A DNA stretch of 64,000 nt, taken from assembly GCA_025024175.1 (NCBI GenBank), contig QCXZ01000064.1, forward strand, positions 2,790,001 through 2,854,000. The letters run 5' to 3'. The notes beneath the pieces are model-generated. The model searched no databases, was not told the DNA's origin, and was given only the letters and a program-made list of their open reading frames with translations. Position numbers and translations under genes: made by a program. The DNA comes from Rhyzopertha dominica (lineage: Eukaryota; Arthropoda; Insecta; Coleoptera; Bostrichidae). Of the stretch, positions 2,538-48,730 are shown piece by piece (positions within the stretch are counted from its first letter, which is position 1; every line of letters begins with the position of its first letter).

Positions 2538-3320
2538 CCTGAAGATCCAACTATTTTCTGCAGTCTTTACGCTCACCAGTAAATCAAATTGTTGTCTATG
2601 AATCCATTGACACCAAGGCTTTATGGACTTCCTAAAATACACAAAGATAACTGTCCTATCAGACCTGTTGTTTGTTACATAAATTCTCCATGTTATAAAT
2701 CAGCTAAATGGCTAAATTTGACCATTCGTGAAGTTTTACATTTCGAAAATTCTCTTGCTATTAAAAATTCAATTGACTTGACCAATGAACTTAAGAATTT
2801 TGAAATTCCCCAGAACTCTTTCCTTATTTCTGTCAATGTCAATAATTTATTTCCTTCGATACCTCCAAAAGACTGTCTTGAAATATTGAATAATCTGCTG
2901 TTAAATTGTAACTTACCTGTGTTTCACAAAAATAATTTGGTTTCTTTAACAGAATTTGTCTTAAATCAAATTTCTTTCTGCTTCGATAATAAATATTACT
3001 TACAAAATTCAGGTTTAGCAATGGGTTCGTCTCTTAGCCCACTTTTAGCACAACTTTTTATGCACAATTTAGAACAAGATATTTTCAAAAACGTTTCCTT
3101 TTCGTCCCATATTAAATTTTGGTGTCGTTATGTAGATGATGTTTTGTGCCATTTTACAGGAAATTACAATGACTTAAATAATTTTCTTACATATATTAAT
3201 TCTCTTCATGATTCTATAAATTTTAGTTATGAAATAGAAATTAATAATCAAATTCCATTTTTAGATTTATTAATTATACATCAGTCTTCTTCTTACCTAT
3301 ATATACAAAATTATAGATAA
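2538..3320 (+). pseudogene. Penelope-like retroelement reverse transcriptase fragment
   Basis: The open frame from about 2589 encodes a Penelope-type RT core: PRLYGLPKIHK near its start, PIRPVV, GLAMGSSLSPLLAQLFM and the catalytic box CRYVDDVLC, then IPFLDLLI. Penelope RTs make DNA from element RNA at chromosomal nicks and normally end in a GIY-YIG endonuclease. This copy lacks the N-terminus and stops at 3320 before the linker and endonuclease. In motif A the usual acidic residue of S-x-D-V-x-x-L-F is replaced, reading SVNVNNLF, so the active site appears dead. A separate endonuclease remnant of the same class lies at 5.55-6.08 kb. Confidence 0.85.
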
Positions 3321-16050: not shown

Positions 16051-19000
16051 ATGTCAACTTTACGAAGTGGTGTAAAGTGCAGCTATTTTAACTGTAATAA
16101 TAGTGCTAAATATGTAGAAGGACTACGTGTGTTTGGCTTTCCAGTGAAAGACACAGAAAGGTGCAGAAAATGGATTATTAATAGTGGTAAGTAACCCTTA
16201 TATGTCCTAAATGTTTGTTTTCAAATAAATATTTATACACAAAATTGAGAAAATTATTGTTTTTCCATTATTTCTCTACAATATTTGTGTAACAGTTGGT
16301 AAATTATGTTTTTAGTTTATTCTGGAATTGGTTTTAAGAACAATTGCTTTTTAAAAGTTATCACAGTTGTTTCGGTAGTAATCTATATGCTATATAAGTG
16401 CTCGAATGACAAAAAATATATATCGGGTTTTGTATAANAAAAACATTCAATGAGGTCATATATTTTTCATAGTAATAAATTGCACTGTTTCATTCGTTTC
16501 AAAAACTCTTTTCAATTCTTTAGTTACCTGTTTCAGCAATTTTTTGAATTTTTAGAAGTAACCTTATTTGAATTTCCTGCATTATTTAATTGATACTTAG
16601 TAGAAAGCTGGAATACAGTTATTATTGTATCGAACATCTTCATTGATTAGTAAATAGTCAGTTGCCCTTCTCTATGCTAAGAAAAGCATACCTACGGTTC
16701 TTGAATCGCATTGCAATATCTATAGTTAACTAGGGATTTAACTTTTACGTAATTAATGCTCCTAAAATATTATAAACTATGACTCAAGTTTGTTTTAGTT
16801 GGAGTTATATTTAAAAAAATCTGGAGTTTTTAATGTGCACTTTTTTCCATTGTATCAACACCAAGCAATAATAGGGTATGATCAGCAACTAGGAAGGGCA
16901 CAAATAAGGGTTGCATGAAGCTGATTAATCTCCACCAATAATCTTACTTTTATTTATTTTGTATTGATTATTGTAATTATTTTCAGGTAATGCAGAACTA
17001 ATAAATCTGCCGGCAGAATCATTGAAAAAAAGGTTTTTGTGTCATTACCATTTTCCTTTATCTGAGTTTATGCATCCCGGTTCAAAATATCTCAAAAGAA
17101 CGGCAGTTCCCACATGTTATAATGAGAGCGCAGCATTACAAACAGATACTCCAGGTCCCAGTAGTGAATATAGCGCACCAGATAAAATACCCTCACCAAA
17201 AGTTCTCACCCCAAAGAAAACATATGTTAAACATAAAAGTATATCTCCAACTACATCTGAAATTTTTCCTACAGAATCGGATCTGTCACCCAGTACACGC
17301 CATTTTTTACAAAACGTTACTGATTTGCCCACACCAGAATTAAAAGGAAAAAAGGTCAAACGAAAACTTGTTTATTCGGGTGATGTTTCAGAAGGCTTAA
17401 TTACTCCCAAACGAAGAAAAATAAGTGAATTGCAAAAAACAATTGCTCGACATGGAATACTCCTAAAGAGAAAACGAACCCAAATCTCACGATTAAAATC
17501 AAAACTGGAAAACAAGATATTTATTACCGATATTCTGCATACTCTGCCATATCCTTCACAACATTCAAAGACATTAGTGACAATGCAACTATTGCATAAG
17601 AAAAAGGCTGTGTGGAGTCAAGACGAAAAGGAGTTTGCAATAGCTTTATATTATAAATCACCCACAGCTTATACATTTCTAAGAAGGAAAAATGTAATTC
17701 TACCTGCTGTATCAACAATAAAGACATGGATAAGTGTTTCCAAGTGTTTGCCAGGTTTCAGTGCGGAGCTATTTAAGCAAATAAAAGTAAAGTCTTCCAC
17801 AATGTCTGGAATGGAACAAACGTGTGTTGTATGCATAGATGAAATGGCCATAAAGGAATCTCTCGAATACTCTCCTTTACTAGATCTCATAGAAGGCTAC
17901 GAAGATCTTGGTCTTTCTATTGGGCGCAGTAATAAGACAGCCAAAAAAGCCCTCGTCTTCATGGCCCGGGGCTTATACTTCAAATGGAAACTACCACTGG
18001 GATATTTTTTAAGTAATAAAGGTGTTGATGGACCAAATCTGGCAATACTCATAAAAAAGTGCATCGACAAATTGGCAGCAGCATCATTGAAACCGCTAGC
18101 TATTGTATGTGACCAAGGAACACCAAATGTTTCGGCTATCAAAATTTTGGGCAGTACTACAGAAAAACCCTATTTCCTACATAATTCACATAAAATTTAC
18201 ACCATTTTCGATACACCACATTTAATTAAATCCATTAGAAATAACCTTTTAAATGGTTATTTTCAATATGAAAACAAGACTGTGCGATTTCAAGATATAA
18301 TAGACACTTATAACATTGACAAGGGAAGTATTTCGGCACGAATGCTTACAAAAATTACTGATGCACATATATCACCAAATGCATTTGAAAAAATGAATTG
18401 CAAGTTAGCATTGCAGATATTCAGCAATACCATGGCTGCAGCACTGCGTACATGTTCTTCTACTGGTCAGTTGAAAAGTAATTCTGCTTTGACTACTGCA
18501 GATTTCGTTGAAATGTTGGATAAGACATTTGATTGCTTGAACAGTCAGTATCGTTTTTCTAGAAATCCATATTCCTGTGCAATGTCATCAAAAACACCGA
18601 TTGTTGCAGAAACATTGAAAAATGCCAAATACGTTATGGAAATTATTCAGAAAGTTAACTTTAATAGTGGCAAAACTTCGCGTCCACCATGTTTTGACGG
18701 ACTTATAACCACTATTAATGCAATACTTTCATTACACGAAGAACAGGTAAGCAATGGCTTTGATTACCTTTTAACGTACAGGCTGAATCAAGATATTTTG
18801 GAAAACTTTTTTTCGGTAATTCGACAAAGGGGAGGGTACAGTCGTAACCCTACTGCCAGAATTTTTAGGTCCTCATTTAGAATTGCTGCGATTAGGAATT
18901 TAATGCAGCCTCCGGAAAGTGCCAATTGTGAACAAGATGATGACCAATATTTGCAAGTACAGTCGGTAACCAATACTTTATTACCTGAATCGTCGGCAGA

Positions 19001-19589
19001 AAATATAGATAAACAGACAGACAGCGTTTCTGGTTCAGAATCCTCGTCTAGCTATGAAATTCAGCAGCCAGAGGCATCATTTGGATTAATTCACAACACA
19101 GCAGAAGATTGTGCAGCAGCCTATTTCATAGGTTATTTGTGTTTTAGATGCATTAAAAAATTCAAGTGCGCAGATTGTGAAGAGTATTTAATTAAAAGTG
19201 ATTCCAAACTTACAGAACCAAACGAGTTGTTTATTTTAAATAAATTATACACTACAACTAATTTCAGTGATTCTTCAATAGCATTGCGCTGCCCACAAGA
19301 CAATGTTGTGGAAATACTCACTCAGGCACTATCCATTTTTGCAGATGCATTTCAAACATATTCATATAAAAGAAAAGTTCTGCATAAAATTTATAAAAAA
19401 ATTGTTGCTAGAATAGACCCAACATTTCTTGCCATGGACTCTAGATGTTTACAACATAGACAATTCATAATAAACCTTTTAATTAAGGTCAAAATATTTA
19501 AAGAATGTAAATGGTGTCTACCTGTTAATCGACGCTTCGCAGATCAAGCCAAGCCGCATCAAAAACTAAAGATATTAAAAAACTTGTAA
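16051..19589 (+). CDS. THAP-domain P-element-type transposase (THAP9-like), 912 aa
   Basis: Exon 1 is 16051-16186 and exon 2 is 16987-19589. They join through AGTG|GTAAGT and TTTTCAG|GTAATG, completing a Gly codon. The N-terminal THAP zinc finger is whole: C10-x4-C15, W at RKWIINSG, C64-x2-H67 and the closing AVPT at 85-88. A Lys/Arg-rich coiled coil follows at about 188-222. The RNase-H-like catalytic part shows D330 in CIDEM, D421 in IVCDQGTPNV, the conserved DTPHLIKSIRN at 454-464 and E651 in DILENFFSVIRQRGG, which I take as the D-D-E triad. A CADCEEYL Cys motif lies near the C-terminus. P transposases bind the element ends through THAP and catalyse GTP-dependent cut and paste. Length and order match THAP9/P enzymes, and there is no stop or frameshift. 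A domesticated gene is the alternative, but matched ends argue for a transposon. Confidence 0.93.
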
Positions 19590-21071: not shown

Positions 21072-21960
21072 ATATGTAAATTACTGAAGGTTCCCGTTGT
21101 AAAAATATTTTTAGGGATATCATTCAATACAAGAGTATGTTTTTTTTGTAAAAAAAAATCTAACTATGCTTAATATTATAAATGTTTTGAGAAAATACTA
21201 ATACCCACCTAAAAGTTAGTCATATCCCAAAGAAAACCTGGAATTGGAAGTTCCTTTAATGTTACATAAAAATCCATAATTGAGTAGCTGAGAAATTGAG
21301 CTAGAAGCTGACATATCGAGAACATTATGGAGATGATTTTCAAAAATCGACAATTTTATTAATAATGACTGGAATCTGTCTGTTATAAGGAGAAGTGTAA
21401 AATAGCTTTTTTTGTTCTTATTATTATTATTTTTACTTTTTTGCCCAATTTATCTGTAATTAAATTATGTATTTCCTTGCAACATTCTTATGGTCCAAAA
21501 CAGAAAAAGTTTCTCGAAATTTACTTATATTTTGATAGCAACCTGGATTGTTACATTTGACCTTTTTATTGATAATTATTATAATAATACTTACCAGCTA
21601 CATTTTGATGTGAATGTTTGTTTTACTAAAATTAAACAGTATGATATACCTCTTCCATTATTTACACTTTTTTTATTTGCTACACTCATTATAGTACAGA
21701 AATTTTACATTAGTAGTTGGGTAAAAAACACTTAGGTGGTATTAGACACTAGAGGGTGAACAGATAACTAATTATACATGTGGAAACACAATTAAATACA
21801 TTTTTACATTGACTTATATGAATATTCACCTAAAAATATATTGTAGTTCATTGAACATATTTATAATCCACAAGGGATTGACACAGAGGAGATCATAGTG
21901 AAAAAGTATTCTGTTTTACACTTTGCAAGTAGCTACACTACTTCATTGGGTATCTGTGTC
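21072..21960. other. No gene seen; possible distal 3' UTR of nerfin-1
   Basis: AT-rich, with only chance ORFs. Read from the right, this is downstream of nerfin-1. AATAAA on the minus strand occurs near 21673 and 21561 and could end its transcript. Confidence 0.35.
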
Positions 21961-22424
21961 TGACTAGAAATGCACTCGCATCTTTATATTATACATTTGG
22001 CTTAAACATATGATGCAATATAAATTAATAACTAGAAATGAGACTAGAACTGCTTTGGGTATAAACTGGCCTTATCCCTTTTACAAAAGCAATGGATGTA
22101 AAATTAAAAGTCATTTTAAGTGCAGAGAAGTTGCCGCTTTAAGCTTATTGCAAACTTATTCCCAAGCCCGCACTGCGAAACTAATATAAATTAAAATATT
22201 TGAATTTTGATATTCAGCGTTTGTAAATTAAATACCTACTATCTTTATGTACAGAAATTTACATTTTAGTATAGATATCACATTTTTAAAAGGTACCTAC
22301 GTAAAATAAAGCTTCGACTAGATTTTCGAAAATTTAACGACTAGAAAGACACTTGGTTTAACGACTAGAATAAAAGGAAACGACGACTAGTGCTGGGTTT
22401 GACTAGAAAAGCTTGAATGACTAG
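21961..22424 (-). promoter_or_regulatory. Cluster of eight miR-279/286/996 seed sites in the nerfin-1 3' UTR
   Basis: On the nerfin-1 mRNA strand the target TCTAGTC (complement of the seed GACUAGA) occurs six times in 460 bases. Plus-strand coordinates are 21961-21968 (full 8-mer with terminal A), 22042-22048, 22316-22322, 22339-22345, 22363-22369 and 22400-22407 (8-mer). Two weaker sites lie at 22385-22390 (6-mer) and 22418-22424 (7-mer-A1). The 21961 site also matches miRNA positions 13-17 (CACTC) in register. One such heptamer per 16 kb is expected by chance. miR-279 repressing nerfin-1 is established in Drosophila sensory development. The sites also indicate that the 3' UTR reaches at least 21961. 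Confidence 0.85.
22246..22253 (-). promoter_or_regulatory. Possible Pumilio site in the nerfin-1 3' UTR
   Basis: The mRNA strand reads TGTACATA, a match to the Pumilio element UGUANAUA. Nearby, 22277-22282 gives TGTGAT, a K-box or miR-2-family core. Each could occur by chance. Confidence 0.3.
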
Positions 22425-22507
22425 GTAAACTGACTATATAATGGGGAAAAATTACGTATGTTACGCTTGATTTACCCAGGTGATATTGGAAACATACCGA
22501 TCAGGCG

Positions 22508-22606
22508 TTAGATACTCTTCTGCTGGTGGTAGGGGTGGTGACCTCCATAGCCTCGGAGGTAGTCTGGCGATGGGTCGCAGCGGAACCAGCCGTTGTCATT
22601 CAACTT
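22508..22606 (-). other. Frame-shifted continuation with coding character after nerfin-1 ZF3
   Basis: After the in-frame TGA at 22598-22596, the +1 frame reads LNDNGWFRCDPSPDYLRG, then YGGHHPYHQQKSI, and stops at 22510-22508. Codons end mostly in C or G, like the gene itself and unlike the AT-rich UTR that follows. Either an indel or sequence error hides the true C-terminus, or the gene uses an unusual frame change. The effect would be about 30 extra residues. Confidence 0.5.
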
Positions 22607-23441
22607 GATGTACAGCCTGGTGTTTCCTGAGGTACGCCAGACGTCGGAAACGTTTCCCGCATTCGTTGCAGGGGTACTGCTCCCCTCCTTCCTGGTTCGC
22701 TTCTTCGGACTTCGTATCTTTGGTAGGTCTAGGTTTGTGCCATCTCCTGTGAGACGCCAGGTTGGCGGGACAATTGAACACCTTGTCGCACTCTGGACAT
22801 CGATACTCCACGTGCACTATCCGCGAGCAGCGGTGTTGGGCCAGACCGAAAGCGTCTTCGTAGAGCTCGCGACAGAGCCGACAAACGTAGTCCCCCAGGT
22901 GGTTCTCGATCTTCGCCAGCTCTGCCTTGGCCTCCTCCGTGATTTCCACCACGTTGAACGCGGGGTCTATGTCTCCCTTTCGAACGACGAGGGTTTCATC
23001 GGGTCCCAGCTCGCGGATTATGGTTCCGCTCACCGGACTGCTGTTGTCCTCGTCGAAGTTGAGTTTCTTCGTGATTTTCGATCTCCTGGCCGGAAGGGCG
23101 GGGTTGGGCGTCTTCTTCTTGGACGGCACCTGGGGGACTTCTTCAGAGGGGTTGGTCTGTCTCTTATATCCGGGCGAGGGCGTGCATGGGGGAGTGATGG
23201 GCGGCTGATTTTTGAGACTCAGGTCCAGAGGACAAGCCGTTAGTTCGAGCGGTTCCGAGTAGCGGAGGTACTGCAGGTGCTGGTGGAGGTGGACGGCGGA
23301 GAGGAGCTGGGGCTCCAGGCCGAGCCGCTGGAGCACCGTCGGGTGGCCGTACGTGGTGAAGCGTTCCATGTCATGGTGGAGCTGCACTAGGGGCATCGAT
23401 GACGACCCTTTGCGGAGGCTTGTGCTCGACTGGGTGAACAT
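22596..23441 (-). CDS. nerfin-1: Nerfin-1/INSM-type zinc-finger transcription factor, 281 aa
   Basis: The single-exon frame opens MFTQSSTSLR. The repressor-recruitment motif CPLDLSLK lies at 70-77, then a Pro/Ser-rich linker, an acidic/basic region, and the EIN-domain zinc fingers: ZF1 at 185-210 (C187, C190, H203), ZF2 at 213-235 (C215, C218, H231, H235) and ZF3 at 256-278 (C258, C261, H274, H278). The YVCRLCRELYEDAFGLAQH and YRCPECDKVFNCPANLASH stretches are those of INSM1, EGL-46 and Nerfin-1, nuclear factors that act briefly in neuronal precursors to control division and axon guidance. The frame stops just after ZF3, but another frame then continues (see 22508-22606). Codons are GC-rich compared with the window, as expected of a conserved host gene. 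Paralogue (nerfin-1 or nerfin-2) is inferred; the miR-279 sites favour nerfin-1. Confidence 0.92.
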   Translation of the reverse strand: MFTQSSTSLRKGSSSMPLVQLHHDMERFTTYGHPTVLQRLGLEPQLLSAVHLHQHLQYLRYSEPLELTACPLDLSLKNQPPITPPCTPSPGYKRQTNPSEEVPQVPSKKKTPNPALPARRSKITKKLNFDEDNSSPVSGTIIRELGPDETLVVRKGDIDPAFNVVEITEEAKAELAKIENHLGDYVCRLCRELYEDAFGLAQHRCSRIVHVEYRCPECDKVFNCPANLASHRRWHKPRPTKDTKSEEANQEGGEQYPCNECGKRFRRLAYLRKHQAVHQVE

Positions 23442-25698: not shown

Positions 25699-26995
25699 CA
25701 GGACGTTTCACGAATGATAATGACCCTGACGAAAATAAAAATTAAATCCAAAATACATTTGCAGAGGTAACATTGATAATTGCTAATCGTCTTAAAAAAT
25801 ATAAAACGTATAGCTGTATAATTCGTAAATTTTGACATAAACTTCAATCATTTGCTTTAAGTAGATTCGGTATTGTAAAACGAATTTTATTTTTGAAAAA
25901 TGTTTATTCAATAACATTAATGTAATAAATGCCCAAAATGGCGATATTTACACAAGCTTGAATTCGAGCTCAAAACGATCTTTTAACATACATTAATATT
26001 TCTGGAGTGATGGATCTACATGCATCAGGTATTTTATTTTCTAAATATTCTACACCTTTAATTGGTGTTTGGTATATCTGCTCTTTTACCATTCCCCGCA
26101 GAAAAAAATCCAAAGGAGTAAGGTCCGGGCTTCTCGGTGGCCAATGATTAATTGAACCTCTTCCTATCCATCGGTTAGGCAAAACCAAATCTAGATGATT
26201 TCGCACTATTCTATGATGATGCGCAGGTGCCCCATCTTGTTGGAACCATAGATCTTGTCTTACTTGTAAATTTACATTTTGGAGAAGTACCGGTAAAATG
26301 TTTCTTAAAAAATGTAGATAAGTATTTTCGTTTAAACTATCGCGAAAAAAATAAGGCCCAACAATTTGTTTCCCGAATATTCCGCACCAGACATTCGTCG
26401 AGTAGATAGTTTGAAAATGTCCTTTTCGAATCAAACATGGATTTTCTTGCGCATAATAATGCACGATATGTTTGTTAACTCCATCATTATTAGAAAATCT
26501 TGCTTCATCTGAGAAGCAAATGTTGTCATAAAATCTCAAATTCAAATTTTGGTGTTCCGGAAAAAAATTACAAAAAGCCAGTTTTTTAGGATAATCTGTC
26601 TCCTTTAAGGCCTGAATCAATTGCAAGTGATACGGATGAAATTGATTGCCTTTAATTATTCGGTGTACTGAAGACAGGCTAATACCCGTTACTCTTGAGA
26701 CTACACTTTGACTAATATGAGGATTTTCGTCAATCATTTCCAATACTCTAATTTTATTATCAGGATAACAGGGCCTGTTGCTGTTCTTACTCTTGACTTT
26801 TTCAGTGGTGGGCAGTTTGTTCTTAAAGTTAATTCAAGTCTCTTGAAAAATTGTATCGGCAGGAGCTCTTCTATTTGGAAAACGTTGTCTGTATAAACGG
26901 GCAGCAGCTGAAGCATTTTTCTTGCATTCACCATAAATCAAAAACATAACTGTTTTTCATCATTTGAATAGATGTGACTTTTAATAAATACAGTG
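25699..26995 (-). mobile_element. Mariner DD41D family copy A, truncated at one end
   Basis: After a TA at 25697-25698 the element begins CAGGACGTTTCACGAATGAT, the same terminal repeat as in copies at 36619 and 54558. Homology to those copies ends at about 26995, after AATACAGTG, so the transposase-proximal end, roughly 150 bp with its repeat, is missing. Confidence 0.75.
25970..26934 (-). pseudogene. Mariner DD41D transposase, copy A, nearly full but broken
   Basis: The main frame (26743-25970) carries a helix-turn-helix (SRVTGISLSSVHRIIKGNQF), the first Asp in CFSDEARFSNN, the second in WFQQDGAPAHHH and the third in PDLTPLDFFLRG. There are 41 residues between the second and third, so it is of DD41D type as in the rosa/VS mariner groups. 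The N-terminus continues in another frame (26934-26734, RLELTLRTNCPPLKK...), which shows a frameshift near 26740. A nonsense codon ends the protein at KRSF, where copy C reads KRSFWARIQ. The enzyme would cut and paste the element at TA sites; this copy is dead. Confidence 0.85.
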
Positions 26996-32608: not shown

Positions 32609-33854
32609 CGAGGCATGTTTTTTAAGTAAGTACCGTTTTGAAATTAAAAAAAGACGTGCAAAGATATCGCAATAATTTTATCTTACATGAAAGCCTGTAT
32701 CTTAATCTACTTTTCCACATAATTTCCGTGAATATTGAGGCACTTGTCATAACGTGGCACCAGTTTTTGAATACCCTCCTCATAAATTTCTGCCGCCTGA
32801 CTTGTTAACCACTGTATCACAAATGTTTCGACTTCGTTATCGTCTTGAAGACGCTGACCACCCAGGTGTTTCTTCAAGTGCAGGAACAAATGGTAGTCGC
32901 TGGGCGCCAGATCAGGGCTGTATGGAGGATGATCTAGAGTTTCCCATTTAAAAGATTTGATGAGATCTTTGGCCCGATTAGCCACATGTGGACGGTCATT
33001 GTCATGCAGCAAAACGATACCCTTACTCAACTTGCCACGTCTTTTGTTCTGGATTGCACGACGCAGATTGTTCAATGTCTTACAATAAGACGCTGCATTG
33101 ATTGTCTCATTACGAGGCAGAAACTCCACTAGCAATACTCCTTTTCTGTCCCAAAAAACTGTGCACATGATTTTCCGGTCAGAAATTGTTTGCTTAAACT
33201 TCACTTTTTTGGGTGATGATGAATGTCGCCATTCCATGGATTGTTGTTTCGATTCTGGTGTGACGTAGGCCACCCATGATTCGTCACCAGTAACAATTTG
33301 GTCTAAAAAATCTTCACCTTCATTGTGGTACCGCTCAAGGAAAGTCAATGCACTGCCTAAACGTTGGGTTTTGTGCAAATCCGTCAACATTTTCGGAACC
33401 CAACGTGAACACAATTTCCGGTAATTCAAGTTCTCGGTCACATTGCGATACAAAACACTACGAGAATATTGAGGAAAGCAGTCGCACAATGATGAAATTG
33501 TAAAGCGTCTGTTTTCTCTCACCTTTTCGTTCACTTTCTGCACCAAATCTTCATTAACGACCGAAGGACGCCCATTCCGTTCTTCATCATGCACATTTGT
33601 GCGGCCATCTTTAAATGCTCTCACCCATTTCCTTACCATAATGTTTTGTCAGTAAACTTCACAGATCTCACGATGAATATCGATCGGTTTTACGCCTTTA
33701 GCACTAAGAAATCGTATAACAGCCCGTACTTCACAATGGGCGGGACTCACGATTGTCGGAGGCATCTTAAACACTCAGTAAACAACGTATACAATGAAGA
33801 ATCAAACTGTAATGGCGTCAGTGCGTAGACAAGAGATGCAGGTAACATGCCTCG
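32609..33854 (-). mobile_element. Full-length DD34D mariner element, 1246 bp
   Basis: The ends CGAGGCATGTT (32609) and its inverse AACATGCCTCG (to 33854) are flanked on both sides by TA (32607-32608 and 33855-33856), the mariner target site. The inner parts of the ends differ. It encloses a transposase with one nonsense codon. Confidence 0.85.
32707..33765 (-). pseudogene. Mariner DD34D transposase with a single premature stop
   Basis: From the ATG at 33765 (MPPTIVSPAHCE) the frame runs 352 codons to 32707. Only one TGA (33651-33649, codon 39, in CEVY-stop-QNI) interrupts it, at a place where relatives usually have Gly, so a single GGA-to-TGA change explains it. The rest is typical: WVRAFKDGRTNVHDEERNGR, the WVPKML motif, D161 in VTGDESW, D255 in LLHDNDRPH, D290 in YSPDLAPSDYHLF (34 residues between the last two, DD34D), and the C-terminal Y-D-K-C-L...G-N-Y-V-E. 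An internal restart at Met43 would lack the first helix-turn-helix part. Close to Mos1/SETMAR-type mariners. Confidence 0.92.
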
Positions 33855-47052: not shown

Positions 47053-48730
47053 CAGGGTGATTTTTTGAAAAATTAACATTTTAAATAACTTTAAATAGAG
47101 GAAAAATTTAAAATTTTGCAAAAACAGGTAAACTTTTGTTTGCAGGGGGACAACTTTTGAGATAAGTTTTTAATGGATAGCGCTTACCCTCTTAGCGGGG
47201 TAGATACCCCTTCAAAAATTTTAAATGAAACTACCCATCTTATGATACATCATTTAAAAGCTTATTACACAAGGAGTCTTGCCATGTAATTAGTTTTACC
47301 ATTTTTTACCCATTGACGGGGTAGTGGGTCAAAAAGTGCATTGTAGCAAGTGGCTTATAAAATGGAATATTTTTGACTTTTTTTAACAAAATTTATTGTC
47401 TTGCAGTTACAATAAAAATTGTCCTTACTTAAGCCTAAAAAAACTTGTTAAAAAATAATTGTTACACCTAAGCAACTTTGTGTTTCCAATTTTTTGTTTC
47501 AACTTTTTGGCTACTTCTTTGGCACGACCATCTTTTTGTTCACATTCCTTTTTATAAATCGCGTGAAATTTTAAAGTGGGAGTCCAAGTGATAATGGTTT
47601 ATTCAACTGCCGAAAGGGTAGAAATAATTTTTATTTACGGTGCTGAGCATAGCTGTGCTCGTGCGTCAGCAAGGGTGTTTAACGAACGGCACCCCGATAA
47701 AAATGTTGACGCTAGGTACATTCTCGAACTCGTGCAGAAATTTCAAGACACTGGATCTGTAGTAAACAAAAAAAGGACAGGGAATAGAGTCGTTGATGAA
47801 ATGGCCCAACTTGAAGTACTTGGTCATTTTGCAATGGATCCAACTAGCTCTTTGCGTAACATTTCTACAGCCACTGGACTTTCTTATTCATCTGTAAGGA
47901 AAGTTACAAAACTGCATAAATTCCATCCCTATAAGATGAAAACTCTCCAGGAACTCGGCGAAGATGACTTCGATAGAAGACTGCAATTTAGCGAAATTAT
48001 GACAGAAAAGATTATAGTAAATCCAAATCTAATAAAAAATATCTGCTTCAGTGATGAATGCACATTTTTTTTGAATGGCTCTGTAAATAAACATAACGTC
48101 AGGTACTGGAGTGACGAAAATCCTTATATTTTTCGAGAAGGTCATACACAAGTTCCTCAGAAGCTGAACGTCTGGGCTGGAATACTTGGCAACGCAATTG
48201 TAGGTCCAATTTTCATTGATGGGACGCTAAATGGGGGAATGTATTTAGAATTATTTGATAACGTTATTGATCCTTTAATCACAGAGCAATTAGAAAACCA
48301 ACGTGACCCTGAAGGAAATCCAATGTTGGATGTATACGAATTGTTTTACCAACATGATGGAGCCCCACCGCATTACGCCATTAATGTGCGAAATTGGTTA
48401 AATCATAGATTTCCTCTTCACTGGATTGGTAGGCGTGGAACAATTGAATGGCCGCCACGATCACCCGATTTGACTGCTTTAGATTTCTTTCTATGGGGTC
48501 ATTTAAAATCTGTAGTTTACAAAACACAACCTACTGGCTTGGACGATCTGCGAGAAAGAATTATTAACGAGTGCAGGAGGATTCCACCTGAAACTTTCCG
48601 AAAAGTGCAGCAGGAGTTCGAGAATCGTCTGTATTGTTGTATGGAAAGAGGTGGTGCACATTTTGAGAATCTATTGTAAGGTTTGAATTTCTATGGTTTT
48701 GTTCACACTGTTTTTGGAGTTACAAATAAA
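47053..48730 (+). mobile_element. DD41D mariner with intact gene; right end not found
   Basis: The left end CAGGGTGATTTTTTGAAAAA follows a TA at 47051-47052. About 540 bp of AT-rich leader precedes the transposase. Downstream I could not find the inverse CACCCTG end before the hairpins at 49.7 kb, so the copy seems 3'-truncated or its end has diverged. The right boundary given is approximate. Confidence 0.65.
47594..48679 (+). CDS. Intact DD41D mariner transposase, 361 aa
   Basis: I place the start at the ATG at 47594 (MVYSTAERVEIIFIYGAEHS); the upstream in-frame GTG at 47576 is less likely. The protein has an N-terminal helix-turn-helix (about 1-60), a second one (about 90-115, ISTATGLSYSSVRKV), then the catalytic domain with D154 in CFSDECTF, D255 in YQHDGAPPHYA and D297 in PDLTALDFFLWGHL. 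There are 41 residues between the last two, so it is a DD41D enzyme. The C-terminus FENRLYCCMERGGAHFENLL is the usual G-x-H-F-E-x-L-L ending. No stop or frameshift is present. It acts on TA-flanked inverted ends in the nucleus. Confidence 0.93.
   Translation: MVYSTAERVEIIFIYGAEHSCARASARVFNERHPDKNVDARYILELVQKFQDTGSVVNKKRTGNRVVDEMAQLEVLGHFAMDPTSSLRNISTATGLSYSSVRKVTKLHKFHPYKMKTLQELGEDDFDRRLQFSEIMTEKIIVNPNLIKNICFSDECTFFLNGSVNKHNVRYWSDENPYIFREGHTQVPQKLNVWAGILGNAIVGPIFIDGTLNGGMYLELFDNVIDPLITEQLENQRDPEGNPMLDVYELFYQHDGAPPHYAINVRNWLNHRFPLHWIGRRGTIEWPPRSPDLTALDFFLWGHLKSVVYKTQPTGLDDLRERIINECRRIPPETFRKVQQEFENRLYCCMERGGAHFENLL

Follow-up and report, generated by a model that had tools for sequence, protein, structure and literature searches.

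In Drosophila, nerfin-1 is a critical and strongly derepressed target of miR-279/996 in vivo, its mRNA rising strongly when the miRNAs are lost, and a reporter carrying the fly nerfin-1 3' UTR is silenced and destabilized by miR-279 through CCR4-NOT, according to the available text of these studies. Two prediction surveys of 2005, in their accessible portions, bear on the same pair: among the fly genes that PicTar scored for targeting by single miRNAs, nerfin-1 came highest, with numerous miR-286/279 sites, two of them anchor sites present in all flies, and MovingTargets reported three sites each for miR-279 and miR-286. For beetles, conserved miR-279 sites have been predicted in Tribolium nerfin-1, according to the available part of a 2020 paper (PMC6961396). 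A second kind of 3'-end control is described for the Drosophila genes glass and drifter/vvl, in which, according to the accessible sections of two reports, readthrough of a leaky stop codon gives a conserved C-terminal tail (PMC6655844; PMC8417969). A single-genome test found no abundant readthrough in Tribolium, where annotation was incomplete, as stated in the available portion of that study (Jungreis 2016; PMC5100048). We analyzed a 64-kb stretch of beetle DNA (hereafter, the window) and lean toward the view that its nerfin-1 gene is controlled twice at the 3' end, by a leaky UGA-C that would add a 44-residue tail and, following it, by a dense miR-279/996 array.

The nerfin-1 coding sequence lies on the minus strand of the window (22596–23396), encodes 266 aa of the INSM1/egl-46 family, and ends in a TGA at 22596–22598. 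We take the fly name nerfin-1 to be the appropriate one for this gene, which databases list as insulinoma-associated protein or egl-46. Judged by its protein relatives, the gene is nerfin-1: the top named relatives of the protein read from 22596–23441 were beetle insulinoma-associated/egl-46 proteins at 73%–76% identity (e.g., from Aethina, Anoplophora, Photinus, Tribolium, and Nicrophorus), and C2H2 zinc fingers were found in it. The frame stays open up to an ATG at 23441, which corresponds to 281 aa. Since the methionine equivalent to 23396 is the start in eight of the 11 aligned sequences shown, 266 aa is the probable protein length; the 15 open codons that precede this methionine probably belong to the 5' noncoding region. 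A search of the genome (an assembly of 479 Mb in 138 contigs) found nerfin-1 in single copy, with three other matches that were only 30%–34% identical. No related loci were found in bacterial and viral sequence collections.

We examined the C-terminus against 119 relatives, which together with the window's own protein were the best 120 of 1761, and against one further sequence, P0121, that came from a search with the tail described below. Most beetle relatives in the alignment stop at or near the position of the TGA, with endings of the type HQ[VIMLQ][DE] or alike (HQVD, HQID, HQMD, HQVE, and similar are usual) where the window's frame meets the TGA. The preliminary description had the 3' UTR start at 22507, which corresponds to a wrong-frame ORF (22508–22816); the C-termini of the relatives place the true stop at 22596–22598. 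We rejected that ORF as the end of nerfin-1, as most beetle relatives end at or close to the TGA position and its frame has no similarity to the tails. Correcting the UTR boundary in this way exposed a conserved in-frame tail, to which we return below.

At the other end of the UTR, the first canonical AATAAA after the stop lies at 21672–21677 (minus strand; a motif match) and the next at 21565–21570. The first falls beyond all eight miR-279 sites, its upper end being at 21677, and the putative 3' end of the UTR lies just past it, with transcription expected to run through 21961. Weaker variants of the poly(A) signal occur nearer the stop, interspersed with the sites; CATAAA at 22249 and TATAAA at 21988 are examples. 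Because the CATAAA precedes the two distal sites, a shorter transcript that loses these two and carries only the six clustered sites is possible. A transcript end upstream of 22424 is likewise conceivable.

The surroundings of the gene include several mobile elements. A P-element-like transposase on the plus strand (16977–19589) ends ∼2 kb past the putative end of the nerfin-1 UTR; its frame has 870 codons from stop to stop, with the Pfam domains TNP-like RNase H, GTP-binding, and Tnp_P_element. Remains or copies of mobile elements lie elsewhere in the window at 2589–3320 (plus), 25970–26833 (minus), 32707–33639 (minus), and 47576–48679 (plus); these four frames comprise one RVT_1 reverse transcriptase, one mariner-type Transposase_1, and two that are helix-turn-helix transposase-like by eye.

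A recount of the miR-279/996 sites confirmed the six heptamers and two shorter seed matches claimed for the 464 bases at 21961–22424, all on the minus strand, which is that of the nerfin-1 mRNA. The 109 nt of 22316–22424 contain six of the eight, namely both shorter matches and four heptamers, in line with the claim of at least five within 110 bases. By class, the matches to the GACUAGA seed comprise two 8mers, four 7mer-m8, one 7mer-A1, and one 6mer. From the stop onward these are the 7mer-A1 (CTAGTCA; 22418–22424), the first 8mer (TCTAGTCA; 22400–22407), the 6mer (CTAGTC; 22385–22390), the 7mer-m8 sites (TCTAGTC) at 22363–22369, 22339–22345, 22316–22322, and 22042–22048, and the second 8mer (TCTAGTCA; 21961–21968); the six TCTAGTC heptamers are thus the four 7mer-m8 sites and the stretches 22401–22407 and 21962–21968 within the 8mers. 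The site at 22339–22345 has extra 3' pairing, five further base pairs with the 3' part of miR-279 (−15.9 kcal/mol with the genome's own miR-279), and the 8mer at 21961 has the strongest, seven further base pairs with the 3' part of a mir-996-like miRNA of the same genome (−20.3 kcal/mol).

The six clustered sites are spaced 18, 16, 22, 24, and 23 nt, and the other two lie 274 and 354 nt past the last of them. Counting from the TGA, the first miR-279 site is 171 nt away; from the second in-frame stop, a TAA at 22461–22463, it is 36 nt away. The rest of the 64-kb window contains no TCTAGTC on either strand. Predicted accessibility of the sites was unexceptional, ranging from percentile 14 to percentile 85 within the UTR. 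A miR-277 7mer-m8 (its 6mer begins at 21973, minus strand) abuts the distal miR-279 8mer (TGCATTTCTAGTCA).

Base composition reproduces the chance expectation of about 0.03 that had been given for one heptamer (0.030 in 464 nt), and in 5000 dinucleotide shuffles of 21650–22595 the heptamer count had a mean of 0.09 and a maximum of 2. The total in the whole window is unremarkable, with six observed against 4.1 expected on both strands and 17 of 100 shuffles reaching six. Clustering scans that allow for the free choice of heptamer covered 28,710 heptamer-strand pairs with two settings (at least four in 110 nt; at least six in 464 nt); four pairs reached the cluster's count in each, and all four are this cluster itself, as complement or overlapping word. 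The free choice of miRNA was likewise allowed for by comparing 65 seeds: miR-279 has seven sites of 7–8 nt in the putative 3' UTR and the best of the other 64 beetle seeds has two, while across 946-nt stretches on both window strands the next best seed reaches four. The 65 distinct seeds come from the available part of a Diabrotica miRNA table (PMC9170749), from which 70 of 101 sequences were used, the rest being duplicates or, by eye, having the same seed.

Genome-wide, a search for triple TCTAGTC with gaps of 5–35 nt gave five matches at four loci in 479 Mb (counts at repeats being lower bounds), two of them overlapping at this cluster. The other three loci are two tandem repeats, of 38 and 39 nt, and one coding repeat of SSQS type. 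The reversed pattern, used as a control, gave 109 + 94 matches, showing that clusters of some heptamers are common and not rare as such; the nerfin-1 cluster stands apart at this scale only in lying outside repeats and coding sequence. On the minus strand of locus L004 (644–3058; contig G000:C53), three copies of the miR-279 seed complement arise incidentally within 70 coding nt, in the SSQS-type repeats of an 804-codon open frame.

Absence of a GACUAGA-seed miRNA from this species is excluded at the gene level by three hairpins in the same genome. The sequence TGACTAGATCCACAC occurs twice, and both places score as mir-279 precursors in Rfam (77.1 and 72.6 bits; gathering score 56); one mir-996 was also found (49.7 bits; gathering score 40.3), 61 nt downstream from one of the mir-279 genes. 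All three fold well (−39.3, −40.4, and −25.4 kcal/mol). The mir-279/mir-996 pair (locus L002, 1358–1568, minus strand; contig G000:C64, near 23.518 Mb) shares its contig with nerfin-1 at a distance of about 20.7 Mb, and the second mir-279 gene is on another contig (locus L001, 1448–1534, plus strand; G000:C42). An Rfam scan of the 64-kb window itself returned nothing at gathering score. In the fly, too, mir-279 and mir-996 are close neighbors that share a transcription unit, according to the accessible literature.

We consider it very likely that the cluster is a block of miR-279/996 target sites in the 3' UTR of the beetle's single nerfin-1 gene, acting via Argonaute, GW182, and CCR4-NOT. Argonaute loaded with miR-279/996 would bind the eight seed matches and GW182 would recruit CCR4-NOT, whereupon the nerfin-1 mRNA would be deadenylated and decay; Nerfin-1 would thereby be kept low in cells that express the miRNAs, which we expect to be expressed together with nerfin-1. 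The mechanism of repression is most likely the same as in the fly. Spacing of 16–24 nt could add cooperativity, by analogy with the general cooperativity reported in the available sources for suitably spaced miRNA sites. The conserved nerfin-1 circuit proposed in the preliminary description is very likely right, supported by gene identity, sense-strand sites past the stop, and three cognate hairpins. Its UTR start did not hold, and its suggestions of a steep dose response and of a site number beyond the needs of a simple switch are conjectural.

Two other readings of the cluster were weighed. The heptamers might be remnants of a decayed tandem repeat or transposon with no regulatory role, a reading with some appeal given the 16- to 24-nt intervals of the dense part, a stretch shared by two sites (CTAGTCGTTAAA), and the tandem-repeat nature of two of the three other triple clusters in this genome. 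Tandem Repeats Finder (TRF), however, reported no repeat in 21500–22700, sequences flanking the six clustered sites resemble one another no more than random UTR positions do (mean identity 0.27 vs. 0.28), the two distal sites carry flanks of their own, and nerfin-1 is well documented as a miR-279 target in flies in the literature available to us. With no TRF repeat and unrelated flanks, a tandem-repeat origin was dropped, and the remnant reading as a whole appears highly improbable. Alternatively, the sites could serve the RNA in some other way (e.g., as an RNA-binding-protein motif with CUAGUC) or act as a DNA-level enhancer, which is compatible with the sequence taken alone and would agree with the fourfold recurrence of CTAGTCG. 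The common core, however, is exactly the complement of the miR-279 seed, the heptamer is confined to the mRNA strand, two of the eight sites are full 8mers, three of the eight have an A opposite miRNA base 1, and the genome encodes three cognate hairpins; we give this possibility hardly any weight and retain miR-279/996 targeting as the explanation of the cluster.

The tail exposed by the corrected boundary is a second open frame that continues in frame after the TGA for 44 codons (22464–22595, minus strand) until the TAA at 22461–22463, and is a candidate readthrough region. Its translation is QRLVPLRPIARLPPRLWRSPPLPPAEEYLTPDRYVSNITWVNQA, with an Arg/Pro-rich pattern, QRL.P.RPI.R..PRLWR.PPLP ... 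W.N... Three beetle-like relatives (P0003, P0042, and P0121; source “lgn”), compared as protein translations, have W at the stop position followed by DWQRL[ILM]P[IVL]RPIPR[ML][PA]PRLWRPPPLP. A search with the P0042 tail recovered P0042 itself, P0003, and P0121 (three of 12 candidates) and no more, and when the window's own read-through frame (region 280–326) served as query, four candidates came up, none at E ≤ 10. These three and, by back-reading, P0051 are the sequences informative past the stop; the other relatives examined end near it, differ, or diverge earlier. Carriers are scattered over the protein tree, in which bootstrap values had yet to converge and P0121 covers just 25% of columns, and the tail may for this reason be old within beetles.

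Several properties of the alignment point to protein-level constraint in frame 0 between the first and second stops. Frame 0 in the sense direction aligns with the tails of the relatives at z = 13–21, and the other five frames score from −0.9 to 0.3. Over the first 23 codons (counted as cells out of 69 codons), the forced changes number 14 at codon position 1, zero at position 2, and four at position 3; half of the 14 are within V, I, L, and M and half within P, A, and S. They amount to at least nine events, with P about 0.002 against equal positions 1 and 2. In a simulation without codon bias, which treats the relatives as independent, zero second-position change arose in 0.05% of runs at 10% divergence and in 0 of 20,000 at 15%–30%; the protein score taken alone was reached in 6% of runs at 10%, in 0.1% at 15%, and in none above.

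The Aromia moschata model (P0051) runs out of frame just before the tail, and back-reading it forces a TGA at the same place. Of its next 15 codons, 14 fit at least one of the four tails and 12 fit the window's (background 0.30), the one remaining codon permitting V at a position that is I in the others. Beyond a second frame slip, eight of eight codons fit WRPPPLPP, though several of them allow many residues. The frame slips may be assembly errors.

The stop itself may be shared. P0007 and P0013, close sisters of P0042, and P0005, a sister of P0003, stop at the W codon, and P0121 has six W among its last 75 residues; from this we infer that the translations of P0003, P0042, and P0121 used a genetic code in which TGA means W, and that these three hence have TGA too. 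The first-stop codon reads as follows: TGA in the window, a forced TGA in Aromia, and, in the three translated relatives, W, which stands for TGG or else for TGA under code 4. Should these three have TGG, the case for a coding tail would be no weaker but that for readthrough would be. At the position of the window's TAA, five residues past the W common to the tails, P0003, P0042, and P0121 have another W, which fits a second stop kept in place. The base after the first stop is C in all five sequences (CAA in the window; CA in the three with Q; CN in Aromia), a context named as leaky in the accessible readthrough literature. Tribolium has lost selenoproteins, according to the available part of the source.

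Similarity to the tails begins at the first codon after the TGA, the closest preceding AG is already upstream of the TGA, the window's tail contains no Met, and neither the antisense nor the other frames show similarity to the relatives' tails; splicing, downstream initiation, and antisense coding were ruled out as causes of the signal on these grounds. The RNA around the stop (22461–22640) folds no better than its shuffles (z = +0.66; 148 of 200 at least as good), and a structure aiding readthrough was dropped on that basis. Also set aside was a let-7 7mer-m8 in the tail (6mer part beginning at 22561), which P0003 and P0121, both with M there, do not share.

Against a coding tail, the stretch 22464–22595 could be a conserved noncoding element of the UTR, or the frame of ORF 22508–22816 could be the coding one. 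Such a reading can draw on the fact that P0003, P0042, and P0121 are known from translations alone, on the GC content by codon position (0.66/0.55/0.45 in the tail vs. 0.63/0.41/0.72 in the coding sequence), and on the 6% of simulations at 10% divergence that match the protein score. It is harder to square with an alignment that is strong in sense frame 0 only or with the 14/0/4 distribution of forced changes over codon positions. For the other frame, position 1 of frame 0 would be a third position, but the forced position-3 changes alter its residues. We therefore regard the noncoding and other-frame readings as possible though rather unlikely, and judge functional readthrough of the beetle nerfin-1 TGA, as read from sequence, to be the somewhat more probable account of the tail. 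No report of nerfin-1 readthrough was found in the main texts searched, which were open-access; “nerfin” is absent from the main text of the 2016 paper that lists readthrough genes.

Should the tail prove real, beetles would make a second form of Nerfin-1/INSM1, a neural transcription factor that attracts broad interest. Tribolium, the reference species of the order, lacked abundant readthrough in one test, as far as the accessible portion of that study shows. The likeness is to Drosophila glass and drifter/vvl, transcription factors with a conserved tail after a leaky stop (available text of PMC6655844 and PMC8417969), and is closest in detail for glass, described there as a zinc-finger factor with a UGAC context; the nerfin-1 case differs in being a sequence-based one, in beetles. 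The in-frame tail is a more novel lead than the miR-279/996 target.

For the miRNA array, the genomic parts of the fly olfactory-precursor circuit are present in this beetle: the target UTR, two mir-279 genes, and one adjacent mir-996. Like the nerfin-1 3' UTR of Drosophila, the one described here combines the same gene, the same seed, and many sites, whereas the beetle has eight sites, six of them within 109 nt, at positions that present data do not equate with those of the fly. Tribolium castaneum provides a further parallel, another beetle nerfin-1 with predicted conserved miR-279 sites (available part of PMC6961396, which gives neither their number nor their spacing), in a different species; in our protein tree the window falls outside the clade to which Tribolium madens belongs. 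The circuit itself is already known in flies and predicted in Tribolium, and what is new is the dense array in this species, which makes the nerfin-1 UTR well suited to studying how the response depends on the number and spacing of sites.
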